This document shows, in pieces, positions 8,104-59,275 of a stretch of DNA of 64,000 bases. The notes beneath the pieces are model-generated. The model saw nothing but the letters and a program-made list of their open reading frames with translations. It searched no databases and was not told where the DNA came from. The stretch is from the NCBI RefSeq assembly GCF_002907375.1, contig NZ_MIYK01000001.1, positions 310,001 through 374,000 of the forward strand, written 5' to 3'. Position 1 is the first letter of the stretch, and each line of letters starts with the position of its first letter. The position numbers and the translations under genes were made by a program. This stretch comes from Fructilactobacillus lindneri DSM 20690 = JCM 11027. GTDB taxonomy: Bacteria > Bacillota > Bacilli > Lactobacillales > Lactobacillaceae.

Positions 8104-11100
8104 GTGAAATTAAAATCAATTCAGATTGCGGGATTTAAATCTTTTGCTGATAAAACAATCATAAATTTCCAAAAAGGATTAACAGGAATTGTAGGTCCAA
8201 ACGGAAGCGGTAAAAGTAATGTCATTGAAGCCGTTCGATGGGCATTAGGAGAGCAATCTGCTAAAAGCCTTCGTGGTAAAAAAATGAAAGACGTTATTTT
8301 TTCTGGATCAAAATATCGTCATCCTTTAAATCGGGCAGAAGTTAGTTTGATTTTTGATAATTCAACTCATTTTTTAGATTCTGATTATAGCGAAGTTAAA
8401 ATCACTAGAACATACTATCGAAATGGTGAAAGTATTTATTCCATTAATGATAAAGAGTGTTTATTACGTGATATTAATAATTTGTTTATGGATACAGGAT
8501 TAGGTGAAGGATCTTTATCAATCATTTCGCAAGGTAATGTTGATGACATTTTAGATGATGATGTTGAAAAACGTCGTTCTATTATTGAAACTGCTGCTGG
8601 TGTATATCGATATAAAAAGCAAAAGAATGAATCTAAGAAAAAATTAGAAGAAACGCAATTTAACTTAGATCGTATTTCTGACATTACTAGTGAAATAAAA
8701 AAGCAAATGACTCCACTAAAAAAGCAAAGCGAAACCGCTTCGCTTTATTTGCGTAAAAAAAAGTACTTAAGTCAATTAGAATATAATGCATTTAATCTTG
8801 AAATCAATCAAGATGAGAATAAAAAGAAACAAATATCTAATGAAATATCTAAACTTAGTCAAAACTGCTTAGATTTGAATCATCGTTTAACTGATTTAAA
8901 ATCTGAAAAAAAGAATTTAAATGGTAGTATAGAATCCTTAAATGCCGAACAAGAAAAGCTACAGCAAGAACTTTTAACGAATACTAAAACGTTGGAAACT
9001 GTTAATAGTGAAGAACGTTTGTATGAGCAAAGAGAACAATTTAATTCTCAGAAAAAAAATGATTTAGAGAAAAGAATATTAGATCTTAAAGCTCAAAGAG
9101 ATACTTTAATCATTGAAGTTAAAAAAAATGAAAATGAATTAGTAAAAATAAAAAATAATATTAAAAATTTTGATAAATCAAAGCGAGTTTCAAATGACCA
9201 AAAATTGTCATTTGAAATAAATAAAAAAGAAAAAGAATTAGAAAAAAATCGTAGTGATTATGTTGATTTAATGCAACAAATTACGAATAAAAGAAATGAT
9301 ATGCGTTTAAACCAAAAATTGTCGCAGCAAAGTAATAATGAGTCAGCAGAACAACAAAGACAAATTAGAGCTTATCAAGATCAAGTTAGTGAAATTAAAA
9401 CTAAAATAGATTCTGATGAAATAGAATTAAAAGAATTACAAGCTAATATTTATATTACTAATAAGCAATTTTATGATATAAATGTTCAATCAGATAAAAT
9501 AGAAAAACAAATTGAAGATTACCAAGAAAATTGGTATGCTGATGTGCGAAATTATCAAGAAATAAAGACTGAACGAGATAGTTTGCAGTCAATGTTAGAA
9601 AGCCATAACAATCTTTATCGAGGAACACGTAATTTATTAAAACAACGTAATAAATTACCAGGGATTCTAGGAACAGTTAGCGACTTCATTAGTGTTCCAA
9701 AAGAGTACGTAACAGCAATTGAAATTACTTTAAGTAGTTCAATTCAACAGATAATCGTTGATAATGTAACTAATGCACGTAATGCAATTCGTTTTTTGAA
9801 TAAAAATAAACAAGGAAGAGTAACTTTACTTCCCATACAAGAAATTAATGAACGTTTACTTAGTCCTAGAATCCTTGATTTAATTAAAAATAAACCTGGA
9901 TTTATGGGTATTGCAGCTAATTTAGTTCAAATGCCGAATAATATGGAAAAAGTAAAAAATCATTTACTTGGAAATGTAATAATTACTGATAATTTGAAAC
10001 ATGCTACTGAACTAAGTAAAACAGTTCATCATCGAGTTAAATTTGTTTCTTTAAATGGTGACGTGATTAATTCAGGCGGATCTATTACAGGTGGTAAGAA
10101 TCAACATCAAAATGAAGGAATTTTAAGCCAAAAAAACAAATTAATAAAACTTAATATTCAAGTTGAAAAAAAAGGTAAAAAGTTAAAAGATGATGAGTTA
10201 AAGCTTAATCAAACTAAAAAAATTAATGAAGAAATTCAGCAAAAAAAGAATGAACTTTACAAATTAACTAGTGATTTAAAATCAAAATTAGAGCTAAAAC
10301 AAAAAAGTTTAACTTTAAATAAAATTGAATTTGACAAAAATAACCGAAACATTAAAGCATTACAAATTAAAATTAGCGGAAGTTTTAGTGATAATAATTA
10401 TAATGAACATGAATTCAATAATGTCATTAAACAATTACAAATAAAAATTGAAAATAATCAAAAGTTAAATGAAAAATTAAAAAGTGAAATTGATGAATTA
10501 AAATTAAAACAAAATCAAAGTAAACAAAGTTTGAATGAAATTAATCAAAAATTAGTAGTTGCTGATGAACGAAAAAGAAATTTAAATCAGCAAAAGAGTA
10601 ATTTGGCTAATCAATTACAAAGTGTTAATCAACAATTGTCAGATTCAAGAAATAAAATCAAAGAATTAACTGCTGAATTGAACCAAACTATTAAATTAGA
10701 TAACGTAAATACTGACAATATTAAACAATCAATAAAAATCATCCAAATTAAAATTGATCAAATTAAACAAAAAACAAAGATTAATAAAGAAAAAATCATT
10801 AAAATTGACAAACAAATTAGTGAAAATCAAGATGAAACAATTAATCAAAATGAAAAGCTTCATCAATTTCAATCGCAACTCAATGTAATTTCTGATAATC
10901 TTAAAAAAAATAAAAACAAAATAAAAGACTTAGAAATTAATTATGATAAATTTTCAAAACTAACATTAAATTTTGATGAAATTAGGCAAAAAATTTCAAA
11001 TGTTAAACAGGAATTAAGTGAACTTGGTAATGTTAATATAGGTGCAATTAAGTCATATGAAGAACTTAAAGAACGTTATGATTTTATGCAACATCAAATG

Positions 11101-46632: not shown

Positions 46633-47062
46633 ATGAAAAACATTTTGGCTGCATTACATGATGTAAGTAAAACTCAACAACAAAAATTATTGAAAATCAC
46701 AAAAAAAAAGGAATTTAACCATTTCAGAATGGAAATTGTTAACTGCAATTAACAATGAATATAATACTCAAGAAAAGTTAGCTAAAGAAATGAGTTTAGA
46801 TACTTCAACCTTGTCGCGACAATTAAAACGTTTAGTAGAAAAAGGAATGGTTCATAAAACTGCAATAGGCAAGGATAGGAGACAACTTGTCTATAATATT
46901 GATGAAAAAGGGGTTAACGCTTACAAAAGTATTGAAAATGACTATCAAACATTCAAACTACACATTTTTGAACAATGGACAGATGAAGAAAAAAATATGT
47001 TGAAAATTTTACTTAATCGATTAGAAAATAGTATGACTAAAAATAATAAATGGAGTGAATAA
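46633..47062 (+). pseudogene. MarR family transcriptional regulator, frameshifted in an A9 tract
   Basis: ATG 46633 behind TGGGGGAA opens a frame coding MKNILAALHDVSKTQQQ, which ends early. The remaining protein (NLTISEWKLLTAINNEY, the winged-helix EKLAKEMSLDTSTLSRQLKRLVEKGMV, and the wing KTAIGKDRRQLVYNID) is in the +1 frame from about 46708 onward. The switch coincides with nine A at 46701-46709; eight A would restore one 142-residue frame of normal MarR length. It could be a real frameshift, phase-variable, rescued by slippage on the A run, or a sequencing error. An alternative TTG start at 46736 would make a 108-residue protein lacking the dimerisation helix. The degV gene follows immediately. 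Confidence 0.75.
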
Positions 47063-47063
47063 A

Positions 47064-47930
47064 TTGAAAACAGCTATTGTTACTGATAGTTCTTCATACC
47101 TTTCAAAAAAAGAGCTCAAAAAATATAATATTCACATAATTCCTCTTGAAATCATTTTTGAAAATCAAAGTTTTCAAGAGGGAATTAATTTATCAAACAA
47201 AGAATTTTATCAAAAATTAGACAGTTCAAAAAAACTACCAACCACTTCACAACCCCCAATTGGTAAGTTAATTAAATTATATAATCAATTAGCCGATGAA
47301 GGTTATGATACTGTTATAACTATCACACTTGCAGCAACGATTTCAGGATTATATAACCAAGTAGTGAACGTTTCAAAAATGGTTTCAAATATTCGAATTA
47401 TTCCCTTTGATTCGCAAATTACTGTAAGTTTAATGGGAGATTTAGCAAAATATGCTGCAAATTTAGCTGCACAAAATGTTGATCCAGATACTATTATCGT
47501 AAAATTAAAAGAACAACGAGCAACTATTGACGAATTATTTATAGTTGCTGATTTACAAAATTTAGTTAAAGGTGGACGATTATCAAATGCTTCAGCATTT
47601 ATTGGCGGACTATTAAATATTAAACCAATTTTAACATTTGATAACCAGACTGATGAGATTGTAGCTTTTGAAAAAGTTAGAACGATGAAACGTGCACTTA
47701 AACGAGTTGAAAAATTATTTAGTGAAGATTTGGAACATATTGATTATCCAATTAAAGCAATCATATATGATGCAAACGATTCCAAATCAGGAAAAATTTG
47801 GGTTAAAAATTTCAAAAAAAATTTTCCAAATATAAATGTCGAGCATAGTTATATTGGTCCTGCAATTGGAACTCATCTTGGTGAAGGTGCACTTGTATTA
47901 GGATGGGAAAAAGATTTAAACCTGAAATAA
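47064..47930 (+). CDS. DegV family fatty-acid-binding protein (FakB-like)
   Basis: 288 residues with TDSSSYLSKKELKKYNIHIIPL, PTTSQPPIGKL and ITLAATISGLYNQV (the carboxylate-contacting Thr and Ser of FakB) and the C-terminal GPAIGTHLGEGALVLGW with the conserved His. These proteins carry a fatty acid to FakA. TTG 47064 sits eight bases behind TGGAG that overlaps the end of marR; GTG 47055 overlaps that site and is less likely. The FakA-like kinase is at 2177-3874. Cotranscription with a MarR regulator hints at fatty-acid-responsive control, which is inference. Confidence 0.9.
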   Translation: MKTAIVTDSSSYLSKKELKKYNIHIIPLEIIFENQSFQEGINLSNKEFYQKLDSSKKLPTTSQPPIGKLIKLYNQLADEGYDTVITITLAATISGLYNQVVNVSKMVSNIRIIPFDSQITVSLMGDLAKYAANLAAQNVDPDTIIVKLKEQRATIDELFIVADLQNLVKGGRLSNASAFIGGLLNIKPILTFDNQTDEIVAFEKVRTMKRALKRVEKLFSEDLEHIDYPIKAIIYDANDSKSGKIWVKNFKKNFPNINVEHSYIGPAIGTHLGEGALVLGWEKDLNLK

Positions 47931-48105
47931 TAATTAAATTAATTTTTAAAAATTTATCTAAGAAGCAAATTTAGGGGAAATAGATTTATTTGTGTTATTT
48001 TGTCTACTTTACATAATATATATTATACGAAGTAGCTATAAATGATCTATTCTGTGAAAAATGATAAAAATGTTGAATAGACTATTTTTATGGAGAATAT
48101 TAATT

Positions 48106-49113
48106 ATGCATAATCATCTTACATTTAATCAAATTTACAAAAATAATTTTCCAAGTCCCACTTTTAGTGAACAAAAATATATTTATGTTTTAGAATTTAA
48201 AAAAAATCATGAATTGGCTTTTGTTATTACTAAAGTTGGAATTACTCAAAATCCATTTAACCGTATTAATGATTTAAAACGATCAATGCTTGAAAATCAT
48301 AATTATTATTTAGAAAAAACATATATTTCAAACACTACTTATAATGATCCTAAAACAATTGAGCAAACTATTCATGGTAATTTAGATCAATATCACAGTC
48401 ACAAACTTAGTTATTCGACTGCCGATAGCGACGGAGAAAGCGAATTTTTTGATTTATCTGCTTCTAAAATATTAGCATTGATTGATAAAATGGACTTGAA
48501 TATAATTCCTACTGTTGAGCAATTATCATCAAATAAAACGTTAAATACCAATAAACCTGCTTTACTACCCATTAAATCAAACAAATTAATGAAACGAATC
48601 CGTGAAATACTATTGGAAGGAAATTACGGTCGTCGCAATCTATTTATGTTTGATTTAGGTCTTGCTACCGGATTAACCCCTAATTCGTTAATGAGTTTGC
48701 AAATTAAAGATTTAAAAAAACCTAATGATTTAATTATTTGTAATCAAGCAGACATTAATTATAAAGATATTTTGAGTAACGAAATTTTAAATGAGCTAAA
48801 TAACTATTTAACTTGGATTTATCATGAATATGATGACGTAACTGAGAATTCTTATATATTTCCATCAAACAAATCAAATTCAGTAACTCATATTAAACAA
48901 CATGGATTTTATCAAGTAATGCAAAAAACTCAAAAAAAAATTCAAACAGATAAAAACAAAAAGCTTACAAATATCGTCAAACTTGGTACTTTGACTCCAA
49001 GAAAAACATACGGCTACCGTTTATATCAAAAAACGAATGATATTAATATTGTAAAAAAAGTATTTAATCAGGATTCAATTATTAAAACAAAAAAATATAT
49101 TGGTTTAATTTAA
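48106..49113 (+). CDS. GIY-YIG (T5orf172-type) domain fused to tyrosine-recombinase-like domain
   Basis: 335 residues in two parts. Residues 25-125 fit the T5orf172/Mug113 group of GIY-YIG nucleases: YIYVL (25-29), KVGIT (43-47), Arg53, IEQTIH with Glu86 and His90, GESEFFDL (110-117). Residues 160-335 resemble the catalytic domain of tyrosine recombinases: LFMFDLGLATGL, TPRKTYGYRLYQK with Arg299, VFNQDSIIKTKKYIGL with Tyr331. Compared with active integrases, the box I Arg is absent (GLTPNSL), the box II His is missing (LTPRKT for THSLRKT) and the NHSS His is Gln322. A start 15 codons upstream exists, but GGAG at 48092 favours 48106. No repeats or phage genes adjoin. Role unknown. Confidence 0.7.
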   Translation: MHNHLTFNQIYKNNFPSPTFSEQKYIYVLEFKKNHELAFVITKVGITQNPFNRINDLKRSMLENHNYYLEKTYISNTTYNDPKTIEQTIHGNLDQYHSHKLSYSTADSDGESEFFDLSASKILALIDKMDLNIIPTVEQLSSNKTLNTNKPALLPIKSNKLMKRIREILLEGNYGRRNLFMFDLGLATGLTPNSLMSLQIKDLKKPNDLIICNQADINYKDILSNEILNELNNYLTWIYHEYDDVTENSYIFPSNKSNSVTHIKQHGFYQVMQKTQKKIQTDKNKKLTNIVKLGTLTPRKTYGYRLYQKTNDINIVKKVFNQDSIIKTKKYIGLI

Positions 49114-49139: not shown

Positions 49140-49769
49140 ATGTACTTAAAAAGATTTGTAGAATTATTTATTGCTTATGGAGTTTCGTTTTTAATTGCTA
49201 TTTGGGTAATTGGTTATCCATTTAATTTTTATCATTTGGGTTTAATTATTTTAGGAGTAATAATTGGATATATTATTTTAGTTATACCCCTAACACTACT
49301 TACCATAAAAAAGATGGCTACTCGTGAAAACGCCAGTGGAGTTAACAAAAATAAAAGTAAATTTTCAAAAGTATTAAACGAACTACCTGCTTTTATTTAT
49401 TTAGCAACTAAGAATAATGATGGTACGATTAGTAACTCCATCATTACCTATTCACAGAGTTCAAAACAAGAAAATATATTTTATGTTGTAACTTCTGCTA
49501 ATTCGGAACGAGTAAATAACATTAATTATAATTCTCAAGTTGCAATTGCTAGTTTATTTAATAATAAAACTGGTCTTCGCTTCTCTTCTAATCAAGCAAC
49601 TGCTGAATCCATTACTAATCAAGATCAAATTGAATCATTAACCAATAAAGTACCTCAAATTAAAGAGCTAGACGAAAATCTAACTGATAAAGCAATTATT
49701 GTTATTACAATTAAATCAGTAGTAATTGAATCATTTAGAGAACGTCCTGAAAATATTACATTCAAATAA
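49140..49769 (+). CDS. membrane-anchored pyridoxamine-phosphate-oxidase-like split-barrel protein
   Basis: 209 residues: two transmembrane helices (about 8-28 and 31-55), a short linker, then a soluble domain from about 75 resembling FMN-binding split barrels: FIYLATKNNDGTISNSIITY, IFYVVTSANSERVNNINYNSQVAIAS, FRFSS-like GLRFSSNQATAES. Flavin binding and substrate are not known. TTGGAG precedes the ATG. The 26-base gap to the GIY-YIG fusion gene suggests one transcript ending at the following hairpin. Confidence 0.65.
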   Translation: MYLKRFVELFIAYGVSFLIAIWVIGYPFNFYHLGLIILGVIIGYIILVIPLTLLTIKKMATRENASGVNKNKSKFSKVLNELPAFIYLATKNNDGTISNSIITYSQSSKQENIFYVVTSANSERVNNINYNSQVAIASLFNNKTGLRFSSNQATAESITNQDQIESLTNKVPQIKELDENLTDKAIIVITIKSVVIESFRERPENITFK

Positions 49770-58307: not shown

Positions 58308-59228
58308 CTATCTAGAAGATCGTTTAAAAAATTGTTGATAATTTTTTAATAATTTTGCTTTGGTTACGTGAGTATAAATTTGTGTACTTGAAAGATTAGC
58401 ATGACCTAATAATTCTTGAACCGTTCTTAAGTCCGCACCATTATTTAACATTTCTGTTGCAAAGGAATGTCGAAGCATATGTGGGTGAATACTACTATTC
58501 ATCCCACTTTTTTTCATAATTTTATCCAAAATATATTCAATTCCACGACTAGTCAAATGATCGCCATGATGATCGATAAATAAATAGTTATGTTCCTTTT
58601 GATATTTTTTCATAATCGGATCCCGAGCATTAGCCAAATAATCACAAATAGCATTATTAGCATAGCTCCCAAAAGGAATGTAACGCTCCTTATTCCCTTT
58701 ACCAAGAACTAGCATCATATTATTGTCTAAGTCTACGTTACCAATTGTTAGATTCGCACATTCACTCACTCGTAATCCTGAACCATATAAAACTTCTAAA
58801 ATTGCTGAATCACGTTTTGCCAAACTAGTATTTTTATTTTTTTTTGCTGTTTTAAATAGCTTTTCTAATTCTTTTTCATAAAAAAAACGAGGGAGATGAT
58901 TCAAATGTTTTTTTATATGAACATATGAAAAAGGATTATCTTCAGCTAATTCATTATTAATTAAAAAATTATAAAAAGAACGTAAAGAAGAAGTCTTTCT
59001 TGAAACTGTATTGTTATTATCTCCAATATCATGCAAATGGCCTAAAAAAACTTCAACATCAAAACTGTCAACTTTTCTAAAATCTTTAGGTTCTTCTGAC
59101 TCAATTAGGAACTGATCAAACTCAAAAATATCGTCGTGATAAGCACGAGCAGTATCTTTAGAATATTGTCTTTCATTAACAATATATTTAATAAATAAAT
59201 CGATTAAACTTTGATTATCTTTTTTCAT
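58308..59228 (-). CDS. xerC: tyrosine recombinase XerC
   Basis: Resolves chromosome dimers at dif. 306 residues: N-terminal SAM-like core-binding domain (IVNERQYSKDTARAYHDDI), catalytic domain with YGSGLRVSECANL (Arg), HPHMLRHSFATEML (His-x-x-Arg), LGHANLSSTQIYTHV (His and Tyr). All catalytic residues are present. GAGGG precedes the ATG at 59228. It lies directly after topA; trmFO, usually between them, is absent, as are hslV and hslU, which usually follow. XerC is preferred over XerD by position next to topA. Confidence 0.9.
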   Translation of the reverse strand: MKKDNQSLIDLFIKYIVNERQYSKDTARAYHDDIFEFDQFLIESEEPKDFRKVDSFDVEVFLGHLHDIGDNNNTVSRKTSSLRSFYNFLINNELAEDNPFSYVHIKKHLNHLPRFFYEKELEKLFKTAKKNKNTSLAKRDSAILEVLYGSGLRVSECANLTIGNVDLDNNMMLVLGKGNKERYIPFGSYANNAICDYLANARDPIMKKYQKEHNYLFIDHHGDHLTSRGIEYILDKIMKKSGMNSSIHPHMLRHSFATEMLNNGADLRTVQELLGHANLSSTQIYTHVTKAKLLKNYQQFFKRSSR

Positions 59229-59246
59229 TGTTTCCCTCAATATTTT

Positions 59247-59275
59247 AAAAAGACTGCTCATTAGAACAGTCTTTT
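59247..59275 (-). terminator. hairpin between topA and xerC
   Basis: AAAAGACTG / CAGTCTTTT stem with a ten-base loop; on the minus strand it is followed by T residues, so it may end or attenuate topA transcripts before xerC. Confidence 0.6.

Follow-up and report, generated by a model that had tools for sequence, protein, structure and literature searches.

A predicted T5orf172 nuclease domain joined to a catalytically dead tyrosine-recombinase domain beside the chromosomal dif site of Fructilactobacillus lindneri

The window, the whole 64,000-nucleotide stretch of F. lindneri DNA analysed here, carries an open reading frame whose translation is intact and gives one protein of 335 residues, in which a T5orf172 domain precedes a tyrosine-recombinase domain stripped of most of its catalytic residues. 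We call this protein the chimera. The first-pass annotation, which had proposed the two-domain architecture, described the gene as standing in housekeeping surroundings, with no mobile-element ends in view, and overlooked the chromosomal dif site 70 bp upstream of its start. The features of the locus, with the basis for each, are as follows.

47055 to 47930, + strand: DegV-family gene, which precedes dif in the genus (context)
48004 to 48035, no strand: chromosomal dif, two 16-nt arms, 81% complementary, without a spacer; 28-bp core at 48006 to 48033, with the pattern on the − strand (palindrome and conservation)
48037 to 48090, no strand: imperfect inverted repeat in the stretch from dif to the start codon, its two 16-nt arms separated by 22 nt and 81% complementary (repeat search)
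48092 to 48095, + strand: Shine-Dalgarno-like GGAG, 10 nt before the ATG at 48106 (sequence)
48106 to 49113, + strand: open reading frame of the chimera, 335 aa, predicted T5orf172 GIY-YIG nuclease domain plus dead tyrosine-recombinase domain (profiles, alignments and models)
48178 to 48492, + strand: T5orf172 (GIY-YIG superfamily) domain, residues 25-129 (Pfam, 8e-9, above cut-off)
48616 to 49101, + strand: tyrosine-recombinase catalytic-domain fold, residues 171-332, without a core-binding domain (Pfam, PHROG and model)
49140 to 49769, + strand: PNPOx-like gene, 26 bp downstream of the chimera, with a Pfam score below cut-off (context)
58311 to 59261, − strand: XerC, catalytic motifs present (context)

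An alternative, longer in-frame start for the chimera lies at 48061. Codon usage is host-like overall (relative CAI 0.697, GC3 0.164), with a lower codon fit in the C half (0.667) than in the N half (0.739), and the GC content of 25.5% is the lowest among 21 genes compared. The inverted repeat between dif and the start codon is a possible operator or hairpin; a promoter scan returned 16 candidates versus 16.2 in shuffles, and a terminator scan found none. Relatives of the downstream PNPOx-like gene occur in four congeners (G001, G002, G004 and G005), at a distance of about 9-12 kb from dif and next to an open reading frame that we take from its appearance to be argH-like.

The identification of dif, made by sequence comparison, is firm. 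The site is a 32-bp imperfect palindrome that contains the 28-mer ACTTCGTATAATATATATTATGTAAAGT (− strand), identical at 25 of 28 positions to the Bacillus subtilis dif printed in PMC3025954. It is the one dif-like place in the window, where none is expected by chance; no second site was found there, the best other places having 10 mismatches, compared with 7-9 in shuffled windows. Allowing up to 2 mismatches, each of ten Fructilactobacillus genomes has exactly one dif, a reversed dif used as a control gives 0 sites in the same ten, and the window's cumulative GC skew has its maximum at the site. In all nine congeners dif lies downstream of DegV. Seven have it 81-118 bp beyond the end of the DegV match, and the distance is 798 bp in G007 and 958 bp in G009. 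All nine carry dif without the chimera, and their flanks beyond dif show no visible alignment to the window. Because the sequence beyond dif varies in this way across the genus, the place may be no more than a hot spot for insertions.

At the N-terminal end, the GIY-YIG assignment of the first-pass annotation is supported by sequence profiles and by the ranking of structural matches. Two Pfam families score above their cut-offs, T5orf172 (PF10544) on residues 25-129 (36.4 bits versus 20) and MUG113 (PF13455) on residues 43-128 (37 bits versus 22.3). Across eight aligned T5orf172 domains, Y27, K43, G45, T47, R53, E86, H90, E113 and F115 are invariant, and adding 22 such domains from viral contigs leaves the same residues invariant except R53, which stays at 90% or above. 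The landmarks that had been named from the sequence, KVGIT (residues 43-47), Arg53, Glu86 and SEFF here and TPRKTYGY and YIGL in the C half, are all present in the translation. We modelled the two halves separately. The AlphaFold2 model of residues 1-145, built on 23 sequences, reaches a pLDDT of 76. Foldseek returned no match to it at an E value of 0.001 or better, and VIA-align against the PDB placed GIY-YIG entries in all of its top eight rows (HIGLE and seven Slx1 structures, Z 5.8-7.1 over 95-109 residues), with the first unrelated row at Z 4.4. Since a Z below 8 can reflect a common arrangement, this fold match is not decisive. Structure prediction, which had been suggested for both halves, thus supports the N-half GIY-YIG fold only moderately, whereas it supports the C-half fold strongly. 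With its hallmark residues kept, the N half appears to be a T5orf172 nuclease domain, and nuclease activity is predicted.

The tyrosine-recombinase assignment of the C half stands on several comparisons. Pfam Phage_integrase matches residues 171-332 at 28.3 bits, barely above its cut-off of 27.1, and the PHROG 216 integrase profile matches residues 154-334 at E 9e-18. A model of residues 146-335 built on 32 sequences has a pLDDT of 87 and a pTM of 0.85, and its PDB matches include XerA, XerH and Tn1549 Int at Z 15.7-15.8, XerA at Z 15.8 over 162 residues with an rmsd of 3.0. The model thus argues strongly for a tyrosine-recombinase catalytic-domain fold. The closest sequence family is that of the small (about 180-200 aa) tyrosine recombinases of the PHROG 216 type, which also lack a core-binding domain and align with the C half over its length at 24-33% identity. 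Unlike the chimera, which is fused and catalytically dead, those that we examined are stand-alone proteins with their catalytic motifs present.

Four of the six catalytic residues of the family (R, K, H, R, H/W, Y) are gone from the chimera, namely Arg-I, Lys, His-II and His-III. Comparison with 31 relatives from viral contigs shows Thr191 in place of Arg-I, Ser194 in place of the box I Asp, Leu296 in place of His-II and Gln322 in place of His-III, with Arg-II (Arg299) and Tyr331 retained. These substitutions agree with the earlier observation that one Arg and the Tyr remain and that the box I Arg and both His are absent; in addition, the catalytic Lys is lost, its hairpin E-x-K-T-x-K (the KTGK motif of small recombinases) being replaced, and the C-terminal tail that small recombinases have beyond the Tyr is missing. 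Gln at the His-III position also occurs in all 12 XerS-like proteins described below, but the other three losses do not. The 31 relatives share 42 columns with a conservation of 85% or more, a set chosen after the alignment had been seen and grouped by the active-site motifs of the family; of these the chimera keeps 25 of 30 columns outside those motifs versus 2 of 12 inside them (Fisher p 1e-4). Recombination is therefore very unlikely, and the scaffold has been kept, as if selection had acted on the fold and not on the chemistry. Both the Lys hairpin and box I are DNA contacts in recombinases as well, and with both lost, DNA binding by the chimera may be weak. A tree of the C half could not place it: its branch is long, at 2.3 changes per column, and joined another long branch.

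We know the fusion from a single genome. The search for homologues with the same architecture that the first-pass annotation had recommended returned none beyond the genome itself, whether in 60 relatives, including ten genomes of the genus, or, among the matches listed, in 397 Lactobacillaceae and 398 Bacilli; in these two larger surveys at most five candidates were scored per genome, and weak matches could be missed. Its two halves differ in how widely they are found. Matches to the recombinase half are common, in 25 of 60 relatives, 199 of 397 Lactobacillaceae and 139 of 398 Bacilli. Among the matches listed, the best identity over most of the C half is 37%. The N half alone finds only itself in 395 Lactobacillales, nothing in plasmids or phages and, at the level of close relatives, nothing in viral contigs. 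T5orf172-family proteins in the broader sense gave matches in 40 of 251 genomes, from which we surveyed 30 loci: the window, one with a broken frame (L053) and 28 taken as open reading frames. Matches without a locus, including open reading frames over 1000 aa, fall outside the set of 28. The motif is recognizable by eye in 27 of the 28, the exception (L067) being a wrong frame, and a small-recombinase profile found nothing in any of them. From the other side, viral contigs hold at least 577 confirmed small recombinases among at least 600 candidates, with open reading frames of about 150-290 aa in the best 80. Neither a profile nor a motif pattern that recognizes 26 of the 28 known T5orf172 frames as well as the window protein detected T5orf172 in those 80 loci. 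Small-recombinase matches on plasmids comprise 1161 records. Three small recombinases of full length, motifs included, are encoded in the genome that carries the chimera, on contigs of 37 and 9.8 kb, and the C half of the chimera is 34-35% identical to them; the 37-kb contig (C21 of G000, loci L002, L003, L005 and L006) holds two of full length plus pieces of others.

The neighborhood of dif in other genomes bears on whether the position of the chimera is accidental. We found dif in 326 of 397 Lactobacillaceae genomes and surveyed 79 dif loci, 68 chosen by hand among the dif-bearing genomes listed, together with nine congeners, the window and a genome of another genus, G019, included because dif had already been seen there. 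A tyrosine recombinase lies within 1.3 kb of dif in 14 of the 79 loci: 12 XerS-like proteins, the stand-alone small recombinase of G019 and the chimera; T5orf172 occurs in the window alone. The XerS-like proteins, of 356-389 aa, lie 0.5-1.2 kb from a classical 28-bp dif (loci L398, L399, L395-L397, L400, L384, L377, L382, L350, L351 and L374), and all 12 have Gln in box III. We name them XerS-like from their size, mutual similarity and place, together with passages of PMC5357621.

In G019 the small recombinase (L285, 9450-10031, − strand; dif at 8632-8659) occupies the interval between dif and ppaC, as the window gene does, and the two loci have matching neighbors (CarA, CarB, NFACT, ppaC, parC and parE). 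This recombinase and the chimera share 27% identity over 160 residues (E 1e-16), and it may correspond to the C half as a positional homologue. In G038, from another family of the order, a stand-alone small recombinase (L286, 9528-10076, − strand) is located about 0.7 kb from dif (8832-8859).

How often small recombinases lie near dif can be judged from several sets, with chance figures based on estimates of 2.1 or 2.8 Mb for genome size and of about 1400 for gene number. In an unselected set of 24 small-recombinase loci (L002-L025), taken by rank regardless of dif, two have dif within their 1.5-kb flanks (0.04 expected, P 7e-4). A set of 20 chromosomal small recombinases, which includes G019 and G038, where dif was already known, has dif at 839 bp, at 717 bp and, in one more case, at 9.3 kb. 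Forty further loci have no dif at up to 2 mismatches within about 10 kb, one place at 3 mismatches and one, read on both strands, at 4. Pooled, these 60 loci include two with dif no more than 1 kb away, where 0.04 would be expected (P 9e-4). For any one gene, the probability of being one of dif's two neighbors is about 2 in 1400. No dif-like site at up to 4 mismatches was found at the plasmid small-recombinase loci examined. In general, then, an association of small recombinases with dif is rare.

Several known systems share parts of this design. T5orf172 nucleases carry exchangeable DNA-binding domains, as described in PMC10448857, and Odn (Gp88 of phage ICP1) joins such a nuclease to a foreign reader that is 42% identical to the RepA_N domain of its target, according to passages of PMC8263062. 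Like the T5orf172 homing endonucleases and Odn, the chimera combines a nuclease domain having the conserved Arg and Glu with a separate, putatively DNA-binding domain. Their readers, as counted in part of PMC10448857, are mostly zinc fingers (200 of 229) and also include RepA_N, whereas that of the chimera would be a dead tyrosine recombinase; the reader of Odn is N-terminal, whereas in the chimera the nuclease comes first and the gene is on the chromosome of a lactic acid bacterium. A precedent for the other half is MrpR, a dead recombinase that binds DNA instead of recombining it, lacks Arg-I and the histidines and keeps a Tyr that seems crucial for binding (passages of PMC10516654). Like the chimera, it has a tyrosine-recombinase fold with the same losses, but it has a core-binding domain, no nuclease and, according to the same paper, the Lys that the chimera has lost. 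Our model of the C half also matches PDB entries of this group of SPbeta-like phage regulators, MrpR/YopR and SroF (8a0a at Z 9.9, 8bpz at Z 10.1 and 9rgl at Z 9.5), SroF being compared by its PDB title. The XerS/difSL and XerH/difH modules resemble the locus in having a recombinase-type gene next to dif, as presented in parts of PMC5357621. By contrast with the chimera, with its lost residues and its T5orf172 domain at the N end, XerS and XerH are active enzymes of 354-362 aa with an N-terminal core-binding domain. These modules rely on a single recombinase, whereas the genome of the chimera has XerC and XerD genes whose motifs are complete and that look intact. Replacement of the dimer resolvase, considered as a function, was rejected on the same ground. 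We file the chimera with the modular T5orf172 nucleases, and neither with tyrosine recombinases by function nor with Xer modules.

We consider it probable that the chimera is a recombinase-derived reader on a working nuclease. In such a protein, the dead Xer-like domain would bind DNA without cutting and the GIY-YIG domain would cleave near the bound site. Use of a recombinase fold as the DNA reader of a nuclease is plausible by analogy with MrpR and with the modular T5orf172 nucleases. What such an enzyme might do is less certain. A role in homing, defence or maintenance, as had been suggested from the sequence, is a matter of inference. The chimera may be a dif-directed nuclease that reads dif or its flank through a dead Xer-type domain and either homes into dif loci or acts on DNA at dif. 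Our best explanation is a site-directed endonuclease whose most likely biology, because the gene lies so close to the one dif site, is that of a homing-type gene anchored at dif; this homing version is a possible reading, on which we would not insist. Such a gene would read dif or its flank and cut dif-bearing chromosomes without the gene, which would then be copied in beside dif during repair. Insertion between the reading site and the cutting site would protect the gene's own chromosome. The kept nuclease residues, the kept scaffold, the firm dif and the G019 recombinase in the same interval all point in this direction, and sporadic presence, in one of ten genomes of the genus, fits a homing gene. 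Against homing at dif, the fusion is known from one genome, the flanks beyond dif vary across the genus, the basic hairpin is lost, most small recombinases are not at dif (with the 40 negative loci above), and an enzyme that cut within dif would threaten the site of its own host.

Other readings account for parts of the same evidence. The chimera could be a decaying relic, in which a dif-associated small recombinase was fused by chance to a nuclease domain and is now losing function. The long branch (2.3 changes per column), the missing tail after the Tyr, the occurrence of the fusion in a single genome among the matches listed, and a GC content of 25.5%, lowest of 21 genes, with a poorer codon fit in the C half, are what decay might leave behind. 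A decaying gene would not obviously keep an open frame, host-like codon usage overall, its nuclease residues and a C half that folds confidently in the model, or confine its losses largely to the active site of a kept scaffold, and we regard this explanation as unlikely. Somewhat less likely still is an anti-element nuclease resembling Odn, in which T5orf172 has taken over the DNA-recognition domain from the small recombinase of a mobile element and cuts plasmids or phages at that recombinase's site, the dif position being incidental or the targets being elements that mimic dif. Odn itself joins T5orf172 to a captured replicon DNA-binding domain (passages of PMC8263062), such chimeras are thought, in part of PMC10448857, to have arisen more than once, and small recombinases are common on plasmids (the 1161 records) and present in full length on two contigs of the same genome. 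At 34-35% identity to those own-genome recombinases, however, compared with 42% between Odn and the RepA_N of its target, the reader has no cognate element that we found; PADLOC gave no match to a known defence family at an E value of 1 or better, and if the protein read dif-like sites, the host's own dif would be in danger.

A junction nuclease at dif or the terminus, in which the dead Xer-like domain recruits a GIY-YIG domain of the Slx1 kind that works on branched DNA at dif while dimers are resolved, would explain the position of the gene and the nearest folds of the N half, HIGLE and Slx1, and a T5orf172 role resembling a Holliday-junction resolvase has been proposed in passages of PMC7824862. 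Yet the gene is absent from the other nine genomes of the genus, all of which have dif, and XerC and XerD look intact, making this role improbable. Most improbable, and largely refuted, is an integrated element exploiting Xer recombination (IMEX) or its remnant: the gene abuts dif, where such elements integrate according to parts of PMC5357621, but the window has no second dif-like site and the gene 26 bp downstream has homologues in congeners.

More broadly, although T5orf172 nucleases are known to swap DNA-binding domains, a recombinase-derived reader was not found in the literature that we searched. Titles, abstract beginnings and passages retrieved for GIY-YIG or T5orf172 with tyrosine recombinase or integrase do not describe this architecture, and those retrieved for dif with GIY-YIG or homing endonucleases do not describe a dif-directed nuclease. 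If the recombinase-like domain reads dif, a nuclease would have as its address a very widespread site that is present once in bacterial chromosomes, and the domain would be a natural Xer-derived targeting module. One could then also test whether dif is exploited by selfish genes through homing as well as through Xer recombination.

Nucleases and small recombinases also meet as separate genes. One match in our surveys (G659) spans residues 21-334 of the chimera yet contains a stop, and we take it to be two genes by analogy with an arrangement on Leuconostoc and Pediococcus plasmids (L026, 3545-5005; L027, 3311-4771). There, 3 bp separate the end of an HNH endonuclease gene from the gene for a small site-specific integrase, which is a second pairing of a nuclease with a small recombinase.
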